Shown here piece by piece: positions 2,866 through 9,724 of a stretch of DNA of 64,000 nt. The stretch is from Roseofilum reptotaenium CS-1145 (GTDB lineage: Bacteria; Cyanobacteriota; Cyanobacteriia; Cyanobacteriales; Desertifilaceae): assembly GCF_028330985.1 (NCBI RefSeq), contig NZ_JAQMUE010000082.1, positions 62,001 through 126,000 of the forward strand, given 5' to 3'. Below the pieces are notes generated by a model. The model saw only the letters and a program-made list of their open reading frames with translations. It was not told where the DNA came from and made no database searches. The stretch's first letter is position 1; each line of letters opens with the position of its first letter. The position numbers and the translations under genes are program-made.

Positions 2866-4452
2866 ATGAGCTACTGCGTTAACCCGGTTTGTCCAAATCC
2901 AGAAAATTCTCCCAATGCTCAAGTTTGTGCTGCTTGTGGCTCCAAACTGCTGCTTCGAGAACGTTATCATATCTCTAAACTCTTGGGACAAGGTGGATTT
3001 GGGGCAACTTTTCTGGCTCAAAATTTATCCCTTCCAGGGAATCCCTATTGTGTGATTAAGCAATTGCGCCCGGCTTCTACCTCTCCTCAAACCCTGCAAA
3101 TGGCTAGAGAGCTGTTTCGACGAGAAGCAAAGACCCTGGGTAAAATTGGCAATCATCCACAGTTACCTGGTTTGCTCGATTATTTTGAAACTGAACAGGA
3201 ATTTTATTTGGTTCAGGAATACATTAGCGGAGCAACCTTAAGCCGAGAGGTAAAACGGGGAGGGCCATTTACGGAAGCCGGAATTAAGCAGTTTTTAAGC
3301 GAGCTGTTGCCAGTCATTGAGTATATTCACTCCAATCAGGTTATTCATCGAGATATTAAACCCGCTAATTTGATTCGCCGCAATCAGGATAAGAAGTTAG
3401 TGTTGATTGATTTTGGGGCAGTTAAGGATCAGGTAAATCCGACAGCAGTAGATAATAGTTCAGAACAAACTGCTCTAACGGCTTTTGCGATTGGCACTCC
3501 AGGATATGCCCCCCCAGAACAAATGGCTCTGAGACCCGTTTATGCCAGCGATATTTATGCAGTGGGTGTAACTTGTATTTATTTGTTAACCGCTAAATCT
3601 CCAAAGGATTTGGGTTACGATCCGGCGACCGGCGAAATTCTTTGGGAACGACAGGTACAAATTAGCGATCATTTAACTCGCGTGTTGAAGAAAATGCTCG
3701 ATGGGTCAGTTAAACATCGCTATCAGTGTGCCCAAGATATTTTGAAGGCTTTAGAGTTAGAGCCTTATTTGGATAGTTTAGCCCAAGGGATGTTAACGGG
3801 GCCAGTGAAACCGACAACGGAGACCTCTTCTAGGGGGACAGGAGGGCGCAATACTGGGAATTCTGGCCCAAGTAGCCATCTCTCTCGTTTCGGGGTGTCG
3901 ATTCGTTCGCGCCAATCTAGATTGCGAGGCGGTAATACAGGACTTTCTAATACCTCAATTTCAACTCAAGCCAATTCTGGCCCAACTTCGGGAGGAAGTT
4001 CGGGGGCAAACAAGCCAAAGATTCCCACTCGTTTGAAGGAGCAAGAGCTGCTCACCTATTATGCCAAGGGTCGTAGGGATTTTGTCGATCATGACTTGAG
4101 TGCCCTTAATCTTCAGGAAATGGTGTTTCCAGAGGCAAATTTCCGAGAATGTAAGTTTGTGAAGACAAATTTCACTCGTGCCAATTTATTTCGCTCGGAT
4201 TTTACAAAGGCGCGTTTAAAACAGACAATTTTGCGGGATGCGAATTTGAGTCGCGCTTATTTTAATTATGCGAATTTAGAGGGGGCGGATCTGCGGGGCG
4301 CTGATTTGAGTTATGCCTATTTGAGTAGTGCCAATTTGAATGGGGCAAATTTATGTGGGGCGAATTTAACGGGGGCTAAGGTGACCGATCAGCAGCTAAA
4401 GCGGGCGCGAACGAATTGGAGGACGGTGTTACCCAAAGGGCGCGGAAAGTAG
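2866..4452 (+). CDS. SpkB-like Ser/Thr protein kinase with pentapeptide repeats
   Basis: This 528-residue kinase has three parts. The N-terminal Cys motif (Cys4, Cys9, Cys21, Cys24) resembles a zinc ribbon. The kinase domain spans about residues 33-300, with the glycine loop LGQGGFGATFLA, catalytic HRDIKPANL, magnesium-binding DFGAV and the activation segment GTPGYAPPEQ. A Ser/Gly/Thr-rich linker (about 315-395) leads to a C-terminal pentapeptide-repeat helix (about 405-515, A(N/D)L repeats such as ANLEGADLRGADLSYAYL). This architecture matches SpkB of Synechocystis, which has been linked to oxidative stress, and the cysteines may act as a redox sensor. All catalytic motifs are intact. It appears monocistronic. 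Confidence 0.92.
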   Translation: MSYCVNPVCPNPENSPNAQVCAACGSKLLLRERYHISKLLGQGGFGATFLAQNLSLPGNPYCVIKQLRPASTSPQTLQMARELFRREAKTLGKIGNHPQLPGLLDYFETEQEFYLVQEYISGATLSREVKRGGPFTEAGIKQFLSELLPVIEYIHSNQVIHRDIKPANLIRRNQDKKLVLIDFGAVKDQVNPTAVDNSSEQTALTAFAIGTPGYAPPEQMALRPVYASDIYAVGVTCIYLLTAKSPKDLGYDPATGEILWERQVQISDHLTRVLKKMLDGSVKHRYQCAQDILKALELEPYLDSLAQGMLTGPVKPTTETSSRGTGGRNTGNSGPSSHLSRFGVSIRSRQSRLRGGNTGLSNTSISTQANSGPTSGGSSGANKPKIPTRLKEQELLTYYAKGRRDFVDHDLSALNLQEMVFPEANFRECKFVKTNFTRANLFRSDFTKARLKQTILRDANLSRAYFNYANLEGADLRGADLSYAYLSSANLNGANLCGANLTGAKVTDQQLKRARTNWRTVLPKGRGK

Positions 4453-4539
4453 GCTGAATGAAGTTGGAACCCGAAAACTTAATCAAGGTTTAATAGTGAA
4501 AACCCAGGTTTAGGGCTGACAATCTTCTGAACTCTTGAG

Positions 4540-5124
4540 TTATCGATCGTGTTTTTCTCGCCATATTTGAGCTGTTAACTCCATCCTTAACATATCCTCT
4601 ACACTACTATCAGGCATAGTCCATGAACTATAGAGGATTGTTTTCACAACAAATCCTAATTTCTGGAAAAGGTTTACTGAAGCCCTATTAGATACTAAAA
4701 CGGCTGCTCCAATAAGTTCAAAGTTCAATTCCTCAAATGTGTAATCAATTAATTGCCCGATCGCTAATGTCCCATATCCTCTATTTCTGTACATTTCATC
4801 CAAGATTGCGATACCAATTTCTGCGGTTCCTATTTCCCAATTAATTCCCTTAAGAACAGCATATCCAATCGGCAGGATTTCGGTAACATAATAAATCCCA
4901 AAGGCTAGGGGGTCACCCGATCGAGAATAGGGGAAAGCAAACAATGAGATGGCTTGTATGAATTCTTCGGTTTGATCGAGTTCAAAATATGGATTCCAGC
5001 CTAACAAAAGACTTAACTCTGGATTGCGAGCCAGCTTTATTAAGTGACTCACATGCCCACTTTCCATAGGCTGAAGAAAGATTTTGTTTGGACTCTTGGG
5101 TTCTAAAATTACTTTCTTATCCAT
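4540..5124 (-). CDS. GNAT family N-acetyltransferase (RimJ/RimL type)
   Basis: This 194-residue protein has a GNAT fold. The acetyl-CoA pyrophosphate loop is RNRGYGTLAIG (R/Q-x-x-G-x-G/A), preceded by AEIGIAILDE and followed by VLVSNRASVNLFQKLGFV, the usual RimJ/RimL-like C-terminal segment. I place the start at the ATG at 5124 (MDKKVILEP), preceded by a purine-rich AGAGAAAG; a start at 5160 would add 12 residues inside the upstream gene. It overlaps the end of the methyltransferase gene by 8 bp, so the two are translationally coupled. The substrate is unknown and may be shared with that methyltransferase. Confidence 0.8.
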   Translation of the reverse strand: MDKKVILEPKSPNKIFLQPMESGHVSHLIKLARNPELSLLLGWNPYFELDQTEEFIQAISLFAFPYSRSGDPLAFGIYYVTEILPIGYAVLKGINWEIGTAEIGIAILDEMYRNRGYGTLAIGQLIDYTFEELNFELIGAAVLVSNRASVNLFQKLGFVVKTILYSSWTMPDSSVEDMLRMELTAQIWREKHDR

Positions 5125-5956
5125 GACTTTCTCTTTTCTCACGTAAAGGTTTAAAGGCAATCAACCAAACTTCTTGTGGAAAATAGTACGAAGAATCCCG
5201 ATACAGGGATTTAAGATATTTTGCCATTCTAGGGCGAGCAAGCAACATCTCTAGGAAAATATTTCTAGAGGTATCTAATTGAGTATGTTCCTTATCTTTA
5301 TTGAAACTGTTAATGGTCGCTTCGTGTTTAATATAATGTTCTATGGCTGCGAGATCGTCAGCTTGGATTTGCTCTTCATAGACAATACGGTAGACCTGAT
5401 GCTCGATTCTACAGGATGAGAGGGCTGCGACAATATCTTCTGCTGAGGTAAAGCGATCGCCTCTCCCTTCTGCAAAGATATGCCGATATTGCTCGTAGAA
5501 ATTAACATAGAAAGACCTCTGAGTCGCCAGCGCAATAAATCCAACTCCAGTCTCATTGAGCGAACCCGCACATTTTTGTAAGACCGATTCTAAATCTTGA
5601 CGGGGAACCATGTAGAAACCATGCATTGACCACAGCAGATCGTAGGCATTGGGATCGAGTTCAGCCTCCTGAATTGTGCTATTGTATTGCTTCTCCTGGC
5701 GGAAAGGATGATACATCTTCTGTTGAACTTGAGTAATAGCACTTTCAGAGGGATCTAATGCGTCATAGATAATTGATTCAATTGCTTCGTCGAGTTGAAC
5801 ATAGCGATCGAACGCCTGCAACCATCTTCCCGTACCACAGGCAACATCGAGTAACCGAAGGGGGGATGGTTGAGTTGGGCTGTTTAATTTTTGCTGATGT
5901 TGTTTGAAGAAAGTTCCCGACCAATCAAATTGTCGAGCCAGTTGCCAATAATCCAC
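5117..5956 (-). CDS. Class I SAM-dependent methyltransferase (C-terminal domain of the interrupted gene)
   Basis: This is the longest uninterrupted piece of the broken fusion and could still be made alone from a GTG at 5956 (279 residues). Motif I LLDVACGTGRW binds SAM; 'YDALDPSESAI' is the acidic post-I loop; 'NAYDLLWSMHGFYMVPRQDL' contains motif IV; 'NETGVGFIALA' is motif V. Homology-like sequence continues upstream of this GTG to the TAG at 6088, so an independent start here is a fallback and not the ancestral one. The 3' end overlaps the downstream acetyltransferase by 8 bp. The substrate is unknown. Confidence 0.6.
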   Translation of the reverse strand: MDYWQLARQFDWSGTFFKQHQQKLNSPTQPSPLRLLDVACGTGRWLQAFDRYVQLDEAIESIIYDALDPSESAITQVQQKMYHPFRQEKQYNSTIQEAELDPNAYDLLWSMHGFYMVPRQDLESVLQKCAGSLNETGVGFIALATQRSFYVNFYEQYRHIFAEGRGDRFTSAEDIVAALSSCRIEHQVYRIVYEEQIQADDLAAIEHYIKHEATINSFNKDKEHTQLDTSRNIFLEMLLARPRMAKYLKSLYRDSSYYFPQEVWLIAFKPLREKRESHG

Positions 5957-6085
5957 GACTGGATCTAAATCATCTGGTTTTCTTACAGCAGCGTTGTCTG
6001 GAACAGCTTGGAGAACAAAAACACCCAGAGGTTCCTGAATAAATGCTTTGCCAGAGTCATCAGTTTCAGCTAACTGCGAAAATGC

Positions 6086-6601
6086 CTAGAGAACCTTCGC
6101 AAATTTTGCCTCGTGCAGTTGGCGTAGATCGCATTCCATGCAAAAGGACCTAATTTTGATGCCTGTATCCGATCGCACTAAGCATGACGTGACATCTAAT
6201 TGAGCATCAACAGGATAAAACTGGTATGGCCAAGATTGGCGATCGAGTAAATTTTGAATATCATCTGCGGTCAACAGTTCATCCTCATTGCCCTTAATAT
6301 CGAGCATATACTCGCGCTGGATTTGAGGAATACCGGTAGCCGCTTGGTGAACGATAATGACTCTCCCATTCGGTTTGGTATGAGCTAGGGCATGTTCAAT
6401 GGCTTGAGGTGGATCGTCAAAGTAGTATAAAACATGGGTTAACAACACCAGGTCATACGGTTCTTGAGAAAGGGGTTGATGTGGATCGAAGGAATCTTCA
6501 CGTACCGATACGTTTATGGTATGTGCTAAAGAGGCGTGGTGAAGGCGATCGAGGAAGCGATCGCGATGAATCGGATTCGGTTCAAGAGCAACATAGTGCA
6601 A
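6086..6601 (-). pseudogene. HNMT-like methyltransferase fragment between the two stops
   Basis: This is the central piece of the interrupted gene, readable as 171 residues only from a TTG at 6601. That start would discard SAM motif I (SIGSGEGD, encoded at about 6662-6682), so it cannot make an active enzyme alone. It retains YDLVLLTHVLYYFDDPPQAI and NGRVIIVHQAATG, typical of HNMT-like proteins. Confidence 0.6.
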
Positions 6602-7010
6602 CTGTTGCCACGGGCGATCGGCTTGAGGAGCGAGACTCTTAATGATTTCCAGATCGATATCCCCTTCTCCGCTACCGATGCTGAGTACCGATAATGTATC
6701 ATCATTGTGCAGGGGCGATCAGGATTGCATTAACACGGTCAAATTGCTCTGAAACCACTCAATTGATGCCTTAGTCATCGTTGAGGCAGCTTTACGCAGC
6801 TCATAACTTTCAGCGTAAAATCGATCGTCTAATGCTGGCGCAAAGAATAGTGGCGAGTTTTTATGGCCTTCTTTTTCTACATTATGTTCTAAGCTTCCTG
6901 TCACTTCATCTGAAATTATCATTTGGAAAACCAATGGTAGATAGTAGACCAGTTTAATCTCTCATACTCAGACATATAATGACAATGCTTTCTTTTTAAT
7001 GAGAACGATA

Positions 7011-7065
7011 AAGGGCGATCGCAAAGATCGCCCTTTTGCATCAAAACACTCCCAACTAGGGGAGT
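7011..7065 (-). terminator. Tandem terminator hairpins after psaD
   Basis: Reading leftward from psaD, the hairpin ACTCCCC-TAGTT-GGGAGT is followed by GTTTT (7048-7065). A stronger hairpin follows, AAGGGCGATC-TTTGC-GATCGCCCTT (7011-7035), with A/T-rich flanks on both sides. The second contains the HIP1 octamer in one arm and may also stop rightward transcription. Confidence 0.7.
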
Positions 7066-7104
7066 CTTTTGCTCGTTTTACTCAAGGCATATGAGTTGAG
7101 CGCC

Positions 7105-7530
7105 TTAAACCTCGTAGGGTTGTTTACCACTAAATTTAAGGGTGGCTGGCTCAGGATTGCTGCCGATATTGCGGTCAACTTTACCGTTAAATTGCCGACC
7201 TTCGTTCACTTTTTCAGGGAACACACCATCTGCGGGATGAAGATACTGAATTTCACCATTGGGATAAACCCGGTAAATTTTATAATCGTTGATCTTAAAT
7301 TTGGGCCGCAGTTGGCGATAGGCGAGGGCCAAGCATTGTTCTTTGCGAGCCAGATACAGAAGGTTTTCACCTTGTTGCATAGTGGCTGCACCACCGGTGG
7401 GCATCTCAAAGACTTGGGCTTTGGGCGATGTCCAAGTGATGGCGTATTTTTCTTCTACTGATGCTTTGGTGAGTAGTCCACCAGTACTTCCCCCAAATAG
7501 GGGAGCTTGTCCGGTCAGTGTCTCACTCAT
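7105..7530 (-). CDS. psaD: Photosystem I reaction centre subunit II (PsaD)
   Basis: This 141-residue stromal-side subunit of photosystem I forms the ferredoxin docking site. Family segments are all present: [72 protein letters not shown] and the C-terminal [10 protein letters not shown]. The ATG at 7530 ([10 protein letters not shown]) matches the family start and has a GAGGAGAGA Shine-Dalgarno region; an extension to 7578 is not supported. The gene is flanked by strong terminators and is likely monocistronic. Length is normal for cyanobacteria. Confidence 0.98.
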
Positions 7531-7648
7531 GGTTACAGCTCTCTCCTCTAAACCAAGATTTTTATGGCATCGTATCACTGAGATGGGGGTGGACTAGAGA
7601 TTTTGTTAGGAACTGTTACAGTTGTTCATAATTCATGGGCAGTAAGTC

Positions 7649-9724
7649 CTATTTGTGTCGTCCAATAGTGGGTGACTGACGACGGGAACGGGAGGGGCGA
7701 TCGCCTCTTGATGAGCCTCTTGATGGGCCTTTCGATGAGCCTTTATCTACGATAGGCAGGGTAAATCGGAATTGAGAGCCTTGGTTTTTCCCTCCAGATT
7801 CAGCCCAAATCTGTCCTCCCCAGTTGGTGACGATTTGACGGCAAATGGCTAAACCGAGACCTGTACCACCGGTACTGCGACGTAGGGCCCCTTCTTCTTG
7901 ATAAAACCGATCGAAGACCGTTTCTAGGCGATTGGGTTCAATCCCGCGCCCACTGTCTTCAACGGTGACTAAAATCATCGGTTGGTTATTCTGCGGTCGT
8001 TTTTGGGGAGGAACTCGCTCTTGAAACGGCTTGGTCTGGGTACTACAGATGGCTTGGATGGTGACCTGTCCCGGAGATGGAGTAAATTTACAGGCGTTAT
8101 CGAGCAGTTTCGATAAGACTTCAACTAACCATTCTCCATCGACGTGAACCAGGGGTAGAGTCCTGGGCAGATGGGTAATAATCTGGGGTAAGTCCTGATT
8201 GGGTTGATGAGAGCGAATACTGCTGATGGCCAGGTCAATACATTCTTCCAAAGGTAGGGGTTCGGGATTCCAGTCTACTGAGCCACTTTCAAGGCGAGAA
8301 AGGGTCAGGAAGTCTTGGATCAGCTCTCGTAGGCGTTCAGCATCATCTAGGGCGGTATTGAGCATCACCTGGCGCAAGTCCTGGGGCATATCTGGTTCAC
8401 TGGCCAAACTTTCTAGACAAACTTGGATGGTCGAAAGTGGGGTGCGCAGTTCGTGACCCGTGATAGCGATCAAGTTACGGGTGGTGCGATCGAGGGCTTC
8501 GAGTTGTTGGTTGAGGTCTTCGAGGTTAGCATAGGCCTGGGCTTGGATGAGGGCGACCCCAATTTGGGAAGCGATCGCCTGAACCATTTCCAATTGACTC
8601 GATGCCCAAGTATAAGAACTCTCGCCACAGTGGTGAATTTCAATCATTCCGAGAAGTTCCTCTTTGTAGAGTACAGGAACCATTAACCAGGAATGGATTT
8701 TGGCGGGGGTGACTTGATCGGTTAGGGTCGGGTGATTGAGGGCATCTGGGTTTAAGTTACTCAGATAAGCGCGGTGATTTTGCTTAATGACATGGGAAAA
8801 TAGGGGATGATCGGTTAGGGGCCAAGTTTTTCCTTTCAAGGAAGAGAGCTTACCGGAGTTCATGTATTCATATTCGATGATCACCTGTTTTTGAGACGCT
8901 TTACAGGGATATATCAGACAACGACAGCTCTCCATTGCTTGACCGAGTTCTTTGGCAGCAATCTGAAAAATTTCTTCTGGATTGAGGGAGCGACGAATGG
9001 CATCAGTAATGGAGTTGACTAAGCGTTCTTTTTTCTCTTGGTTGGCGATCGCGGTATAGGCCTTCACCAGTTTATATTGACCGGCTTGTAAATAGGTTAC
9101 TAGACGCTCGGCGAAGGGAGCCGGATCGAGATGAGAGATCTGACAGGCAGGCGCTTGTGTGATCCGAGTTTGGGCTTGTTCCACTTTAGCCGCTAATTCC
9201 GGACGATACTCTAAAATTCGAGACAGTAAGGCCTGGGCTGCCTGTTCGCAAATTTGGCGATCAAATGTCCAAATGCCCTCAAAGCGTCGTGCTTGATCCA
9301 TCGTCATCAAGGGAATTTCGGGCAATCCCATCCCTGATGGATCGCGTTCGCGACAAATTAAACACGTAGCATACTGCTGACCAATAATCACCAAATGCCA
9401 TTCATGCTTGAGTTCGTCCTGGGAACTAAAGGCAATCGTTTCATACTCTTGGGAAGCATTCTTAAATTCCGTTTCTGGAGCAGCCAGAACATAAACCTGG
9501 TCAGTTTTTTGAGCAATGCGGCGATAGCGATGAGACTCTTGGCGATAAAACCGTTCTCGCTGGAAATTAGCAATGACTAAGGGCTGATCGGCCCCAGCCC
9601 CAGCCAAGACCTGGTCTTCCATAGCATGGGAAAGGGCGGTCAAAGACGGCTTAAAATAGATTTGCGATCGCAGTTGGGGTAACCTTTGTAAAAGGTCTGC
9701 CAACACGGAAGGATAATTACTCAT
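7649..9724 (-). CDS. DICT-GAF sensor histidine kinase
   Basis: This 691-residue soluble sensor kinase has no clear membrane segment. Residues about 1-190 resemble the DICT sensory domain found in cyanobacterial kinases and cyclases (MSNYPSVLADLLQRLPQLRS start). Residues about 230-395 form a GAF domain. The HisKA domain has the phospho-acceptor motif ITGHELRTPLS (about 420-430). The HATPase has LLDNACKFTP (N box), DSGRGIEP (G1) and GTGLGLAI (G2). A basic Ser/Arg-rich tail (about 665-691) follows. There is no receiver domain and no adjacent response regulator, so its partner is encoded elsewhere. Three TTTAAGTTT-like repeats lie just upstream of the start. The signal is not predictable. Confidence 0.93.
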   Translation of the reverse strand: MSNYPSVLADLLQRLPQLRSQIYFKPSLTALSHAMEDQVLAGAGADQPLVIANFQRERFYRQESHRYRRIAQKTDQVYVLAAPETEFKNASQEYETIAFSSQDELKHEWHLVIIGQQYATCLICRERDPSGMGLPEIPLMTMDQARRFEGIWTFDRQICEQAAQALLSRILEYRPELAAKVEQAQTRITQAPACQISHLDPAPFAERLVTYLQAGQYKLVKAYTAIANQEKKERLVNSITDAIRRSLNPEEIFQIAAKELGQAMESCRCLIYPCKASQKQVIIEYEYMNSGKLSSLKGKTWPLTDHPLFSHVIKQNHRAYLSNLNPDALNHPTLTDQVTPAKIHSWLMVPVLYKEELLGMIEIHHCGESSYTWASSQLEMVQAIASQIGVALIQAQAYANLEDLNQQLEALDRTTRNLIAITGHELRTPLSTIQVCLESLASEPDMPQDLRQVMLNTALDDAERLRELIQDFLTLSRLESGSVDWNPEPLPLEECIDLAISSIRSHQPNQDLPQIITHLPRTLPLVHVDGEWLVEVLSKLLDNACKFTPSPGQVTIQAICSTQTKPFQERVPPQKRPQNNQPMILVTVEDSGRGIEPNRLETVFDRFYQEEGALRRSTGGTGLGLAICRQIVTNWGGQIWAESGGKNQGSQFRFTLPIVDKGSSKGPSRGSSRGDRPSRSRRQSPTIGRHK

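Follow-up and report, generated by a model that had tools for sequence, protein, structure and literature searches.

The window analyzed here, the whole 64,000-nucleotide stretch of DNA from Roseofilum reptotaenium CS-1145, contains on its minus strand (5117..6922) a frame encoding two SAM methyltransferase domains with stop codons inside it, which raises the question of whether the locus holds a dead gene, a gene read through its stops, or two genes. Conceptual translation yielded 602 codons (the closing TAA counted) that are interrupted by just two stops, a TGA at codon 68 (6719..6721, minus strand) and a TAG at codon 279 (6086..6088, minus strand), in exact agreement with the first-pass annotation, which had described a two-domain frame broken at these two codons only. 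We consider it likely that the window copy is a recently inactivated pseudogene of a genuine fused two-methyltransferase enzyme, and that the gene had itself been acquired recently.

Eleven orthologous loci came from a pattern-based scan of species genomes, and 8 of them (L010 to L015, L018, and L019) carry an uninterrupted two-domain open reading frame of 567-598 residues, that of L014 being counted from position 4926. The homologues aligned co-linearly with the window frame, without frameshift, well past anything that chance would produce; identity was highest for L010 (74%; from the Cyanothece sp. SIO2G6 MAG), lowest for L018 (46%), and 60-62% for the seven others. At the site of codon 68, towards the 5' end of the frame, the relatives have CGG (L010), TAT (six genes), CTT (L018), or AAT (L016); at the site of codon 279, CAG is found in 8 of the 9 other aligned genes and CAT in L018, and the TAG of the window copy is one C-to-T change from CAG. 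A stop is present at neither site in any of these nine genes. Full-length orthologues with residues at both stop positions are thus present, and orthologues consisting of separate genes split at these stops were looked for among the same loci with a negative result, upholding one fused gene. Since sense codons occupy both sites and the two-domain gene is uninterrupted at most loci, the two domains were genuinely fused in the ancestral gene, and both stops are derived; relative to its intact orthologues, the window frame is disabled.

The remaining three loci are damaged in other ways. L016, from Hormoscilla, is broken by its own TGA at a different codon, while in L020, from Okeania sp. SIO1I7, a deletion has left a remnant. 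In Moorena sp. SS36440bin_2 the gene lies over two contigs, with its front piece in L007 and the remainder in L017, on a contig shared with L003; the contig ends at the break (L007:1983-2038 and L003:1-95) form a perfect 14-base inverted pair, and the break in L017 looks like a mobile-element insertion. Because L016, L020, and L017 are broken in different ways, the gene has been lost repeatedly. The L016 locus, from Hormoscilla sp. GM7CHS1pb, contains a second interrupted gene: an in-frame TAG splits a gene for an aromatic amino acid lyase (L016:8967-10604) that lies close to the methyltransferase. A rearranged duplicate was found in Moorena bouillonii, where a 152-residue open reading frame (L011:8645-9103) is 97% identical to the C-terminal part of the methyltransferase and also matches the aminotransferase.

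The two-domain methyltransferase family is rare in cyanobacteria. Of 388 genomes sampled across the class, 4 gave a match at E <= 1e-20, one of them over domain 1 only, and among nearer genomes 6 of 59 matched at E <= 0.001, some weakly over one domain. No two-domain copy was found in plasmid records, where the single match covered 34% of the query at 29% identity, and a search of PHROGs gave a weak match.

From Pfam matches, motifs, and predicted folds, both domains are members of the class I SAM-dependent methyltransferase superfamily. The first part of the protein matched Methyltransf_23 (E=1.3e-14) and the second Methyltransf_25 (E=8e-10), both above the Pfam cut-off, and the segments LSIGSGEGD and LLDVACGTGRW, which we take to be the SAM motifs, are near-invariant in the orthologue alignment. 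No NCBIfam model matched the methyltransferase parts above its cut-off.

Domain 1 (6005..6844, minus strand; limits transferred from residues 27-307 of the L010 model) had been called histamine N-methyltransferase (HNMT)-like on first inspection, and both sequence and fold bear this out. Against PDB sequences, the window part matched human HNMT at E=1.3e-10 with similarity over about 190 residues, a domain 1 profile of nine relatives matched it at 5.7e-10, and L010 alone did so at 1.6e-4. A structure predicted for the intact L010 protein (mean pLDDT 71, pTM 0.50) was compared with HNMT; residues 27-307 superimposed with a Z score of 27.8 (rmsd 2.8 over 275 residues), compared to 19.1 for the next family. 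Human HNMT (PDB 1JQD and 2AOU) thus has its fold in common with domain 1 of L010 over nearly the whole chain, although the structure-based identity is just 16-17% and the HNMT-like domain is here fused to a second methyltransferase. The counterpart of HNMT Gln143 (numbered by counting from the alignment), presumably a histamine contact, is a histidine (H164 of L010) that is invariant in all eight orthologues aligned; histamine therefore need not be the substrate. Judged from sequence and the predicted fold, domain 1 shares the HNMT fold and sequence similarity and departs from HNMT at Gln143, and we classify it as HNMT-like rather than as an HNMT.

Domain 2 (5147..5974, minus strand) is a class I methyltransferase by the same kinds of evidence. 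For the model of the window domain 2 (mean pLDDT 67, pTM 0.68), VIA gave its top Z score, 19.2, to HNMT and about 16.9 to NTMT1-type N-methyltransferases, scores that lie within the range of many methyltransferases with no clear separation; absence of a family from the VIA lists was not counted against that family. Foldseek ranked phosphoethanolamine methyltransferases first for this model, and in a search of PDB sequences domain 2 alone found nothing below E=0.12. A profile comparison of domain 1 with domain 2, as a test of recent duplication, gave a probability of 15% (E=0.0018) with shallow profiles. The phosphoethanolamine N-methyltransferases (PMT) of plants and nematodes have two methyltransferase domains in one chain, and for the whole model they ranked just behind HNMT in Foldseek, aligning over both domains; because their whole-chain superposition was poor (TM 0.2-0.3, rmsd about 20), a like domain arrangement is not supported.

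The methyltransferase frame occupies, together with a GNAT N-acetyltransferase gene, an insertion at 4462..7009, whose ends were taken from the alignment with the same-genus genome G001 and lie within about 12 bases of the ends of the G004 alignment. The GNAT gene (4540..5124, minus strand) is open, and its start overlaps the methyltransferase stop (ATGGATAA). On one side lies a protein kinase/pentapeptide-repeat gene (2866..4452, plus strand), named by eye from its sequence, and on the other a gene at 7105..7536 (minus strand) whose product we take to be PsaD, photosystem I subunit II. In the same-genus genomes G001, G002, and G004 the insertion of about 2.5 kb is missing and psaD directly adjoins the kinase gene; in G003, psaD has other neighbors. 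This comparison of the psaD site covered G001 to G004, and a search for the methyltransferase in the five same-genus genomes G001 to G005 returned no match. The flanks of the insertion share 95-97% DNA identity with G001 (dS 0.123 over eight gene pairs), and the cassette shares 77% DNA identity with L010 over 4550-6844. The simplest reading is that the cassette was gained after the split from G001, although it may instead have been lost in the other same-genus genomes.

Under the pseudogene reading, insertion of the methyltransferase and GNAT genes next to psaD would have been followed, very recently, by the two stops. Domain 1 spans both stops. The TGA falls in a variable stretch upstream of the SAM motif and would remove everything from that motif onward. 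The TAG falls in the final long helix of domain 1, ahead of the closing strands; it is located within that domain, whose end is near residue 307 in the model of intact L010, and not at the domain boundary. Given both positions, no active two-domain enzyme should be made. The next in-frame ATG, GTG, or TTG 3' of the TGA is a TTG at 6601, past the SAM motif SIGSGEGDID, and 3' of the TAG it is a GTG at 5956, from which most or all of domain 2 would be retained. A search of the window genome, a draft of 113 contigs and 5.67 Mb, gave one methyltransferase match at E <= 0.001, the window copy itself, and this broken copy would probably be annotated as separate fragments.

We examined how long ago the frame was disabled by comparing its changes with those of L010. 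The counts of changes excluded the row of the broken L016, all columns containing gaps or X, and the final 14 columns. With five outgroups, the window copy did not differ significantly from L010 in relative-rate tests (largest chi-square, 1.45). At columns that are otherwise invariant, the window copy has 0, 0, and 7 unique changes in its three segments and L010 has 1, 5, and 7, i.e., 7 in total compared to 13 in the intact gene; without the L018 row, the counts were 3, 7, and 16 and 1, 9, and 12, respectively. The dN/dS of the methyltransferase frame against L010 was 0.144, a rough value given a dS of about 1.1, and that of the GNAT gene was similar (0.152). In 3,000 runs of a neutral simulation with 20 mutations, at least two stops arose in 22%, and invariant codons took 4.4 changes on average, whereas about 111 neutral mutations would be expected had the gene been dead since the split from G001; with so little decay, death must be recent. 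The earlier proposal that the gene was intact very recently thus agrees with the data, in that no significant excess of amino acid change was detected, and death would be too recent for relaxed selection to leave such a signal.

Because the stops are so recent, conservation by itself does not discriminate between a gene that has just died and one that is read through. Both stops sit in a conserved frame that shows no significant loss of constraint, and before codon 279 the window copy has no unique change at an otherwise invariant column (10 without L018, as in L010), as would be expected if ribosomes passed both stops, by read-through or recoding, to make the whole two-domain protein. Two different stop codons would both need to be suppressed, however, and no CTA, TCA, or TTA anticodon was found in 51 ARAGORN calls (52 matches), a tRNA list that is incomplete, as scoring covered 150 of 360 candidates and the calls include no tRNA-Ile. 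The genome also encodes RF1, above its cut-off, and neither stop is conserved in the aligned genes. Read-through, which the first-pass annotation had offered as an option, accordingly finds no positive support beyond conservation, and we regard it as very improbable; the more specific version, in which UGA and UAG are read through efficiently and the full enzyme is under conditional control of translation termination, strikes us as no less far-fetched.

Sequencing or assembly error at one or both stops, leaving the gene intact, would explain why the frame shows little other sign of decay, and the genome is a draft in 113 contigs; yet two separate substitution-type errors that both create in-frame stops in one gene would be an unlikely coincidence, and this explanation is in our judgment improbable. 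A split gene, with domain 2 made as a separate protein from GTG 5956 and translated together with the GNAT gene, draws on the 322-codon frame after the TAG, which contains a methyltransferase domain and whose stop is overlapped by the GNAT start. By eye, however, there is no obvious ribosome binding site ahead of GTG 5956, and domain 2 is no better kept than domain 1, with 7 unique changes after codon 279 compared to none before it (16 compared to 10 without L018). We therefore think a split quite improbable, somewhat more so than an error. Against the death of the gene stand the absence of any frameshift, the little decay beyond the two stops, and the open state of the GNAT gene and of partner-type aminotransferase and reductase genes elsewhere in the genome; recent inactivation nonetheless remains the reading that we prefer.

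The survey of tRNA genes in the window genome also revealed a six-tRNA array (L094; G000:C35:46700-47500) with Asp, Met, Trp, Glu, Gln, and Lys tRNAs, and called four tRNA-Trp genes, three of them nearly identical.

The genes around the methyltransferase were compared across loci. Of 12 loci, 5 (L010, L014, L018, L020, and the window) have a GNAT relative adjacent to the methyltransferase or no more than 4 kb away, in line with the initially proposed link to the GNAT gene; in the flanks compared at the other seven loci, some of them short, none was seen. A class II aldolase/adducin gene, a GhrA-like 2-hydroxyacid dehydrogenase gene on the other strand, and an LL-DAP-type aminotransferase gene, all named from the L014 proteins, stand beside the methyltransferase in 6 of 11 loci (L011, L012, L014, L015, L017, and L019, from Moorena, Hydrocoleum, Okeania, Calothrix, and Symploca). 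L016 has the aldolase and dehydrogenase and L013 a shortened aldolase, and none of the three genes was found near the methyltransferase in L010, L018, or L020. In the window genome, relatives of the aminotransferase (56%) and dehydrogenase (54%) lie side by side on another contig, and the aldolase had no match; in G001-G005, no relatives of the first two as close as these were found. PDB relatives of the class II aldolase neighbor include TqaM and the decarboxylase NovR; nothing applicable was found in the literature on TqaM/NovR-like aldolase-decarboxylase chemistry.

Judged from its gene content, the partner set resembles a small pathway of biosynthesis, one that filamentous cyanobacteria carry. 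The neighboring aminotransferase and 2-hydroxyacid dehydrogenase would convert an amino acid to a keto acid and then to a hydroxy acid, and the gene neighborhood suggests that intact orthologues probably transfer methyl groups to that product in two steps; the aldolase-fold enzyme and the GNAT may tailor it further, giving a methylated and perhaps acylated compound. The idea that methyl and acetyl groups are transferred to a small amine was not supported, as the recurrent neighbors would point rather to amino acid/keto acid chemistry.

Several further arrangements were observed. In the window genome, a second LL-DAP-type aminotransferase, a GhrA-like reductase, and a small SET-domain protein are encoded in a row (L046; G000:C75:160000-178000, 6707-9379), the first two resembling the methyltransferase partner genes of other cyanobacteria. 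A gene for a small SET-domain protein adjoins a GNAT relative at L051:5605-6623, L052:6651-7669, L054:2790-3831, and L020:6843-7911, a pair that recurs in these four loci, three of which have no methyltransferase. A 52-residue GNAT remnant lies at about 7496-7651 of L053 in the window genome (G000:C59:14000-29000), a site where a GNAT-SET pair is intact in the same-genus genomes G004 and G005.

Among the literature matches listed, only WelM3 and DsyGD looked comparable. WelM3 of the welwitindolinone clusters is described as a putative histamine N-methyltransferase, one of three methyltransferases there, with no purpose assigned (PMC4236562); its likeness to the present family is one of annotation, WelM3 being filed as an HNMT within a biosynthetic cluster of cyanobacteria. 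An HNMT-like enzyme had been called unusual in cyanobacteria, which is right in part, as WelM3 had already been proposed as one.

The aminotransferase-reductase-methyltransferase set led us to consider DsyGD, a bifunctional enzyme of DMSP synthesis in Gynuella and some filamentous cyanobacteria, whose gene in Gynuella adjoins a predicted MTOB reductase (PMC11306096). Like the present family it is, in that account, a fused enzyme with a leading SAM methyltransferase found in some filamentous cyanobacteria; its C-terminal domain is a ureidoglycolate-lyase-like decarboxylase (PF04115), whereas here the second domain is a methyltransferase. Neither the window frame nor L010 or L018 matched PF04115, and membership was rejected because DsyGD, as described there, ends in this domain. 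That the pathway shares the logic of DMSP synthesis, namely, transamination, reduction, methylation, and decarboxylation, is a guess by analogy. The small SET-domain proteins were also considered as a connection to DMSP, because BurB is a SET enzyme (PMC12542666); in a search of PDB sequences, one small SET-domain protein matched lysine methyltransferases (best E=1.8e-6), none of them labeled BurB. A published description of this two-domain family, or of the pathway suggested by its neighbors, was not found among the matches listed for fused or HNMT-like cyanobacterial enzymes in the literature searched, mostly without subscription papers.

Altogether, the window copy is most likely an ordinary, very young pseudogene of an uncharacterized enzyme family. 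As a pseudogene it is unexceptional: the insertion is specific to the strain, its inactivation is fresh, and the family has been lost repeatedly. The greater significance may lie in the intact enzymes, rare fusion methyltransferases that are HNMT-like and have recurrent partner genes.
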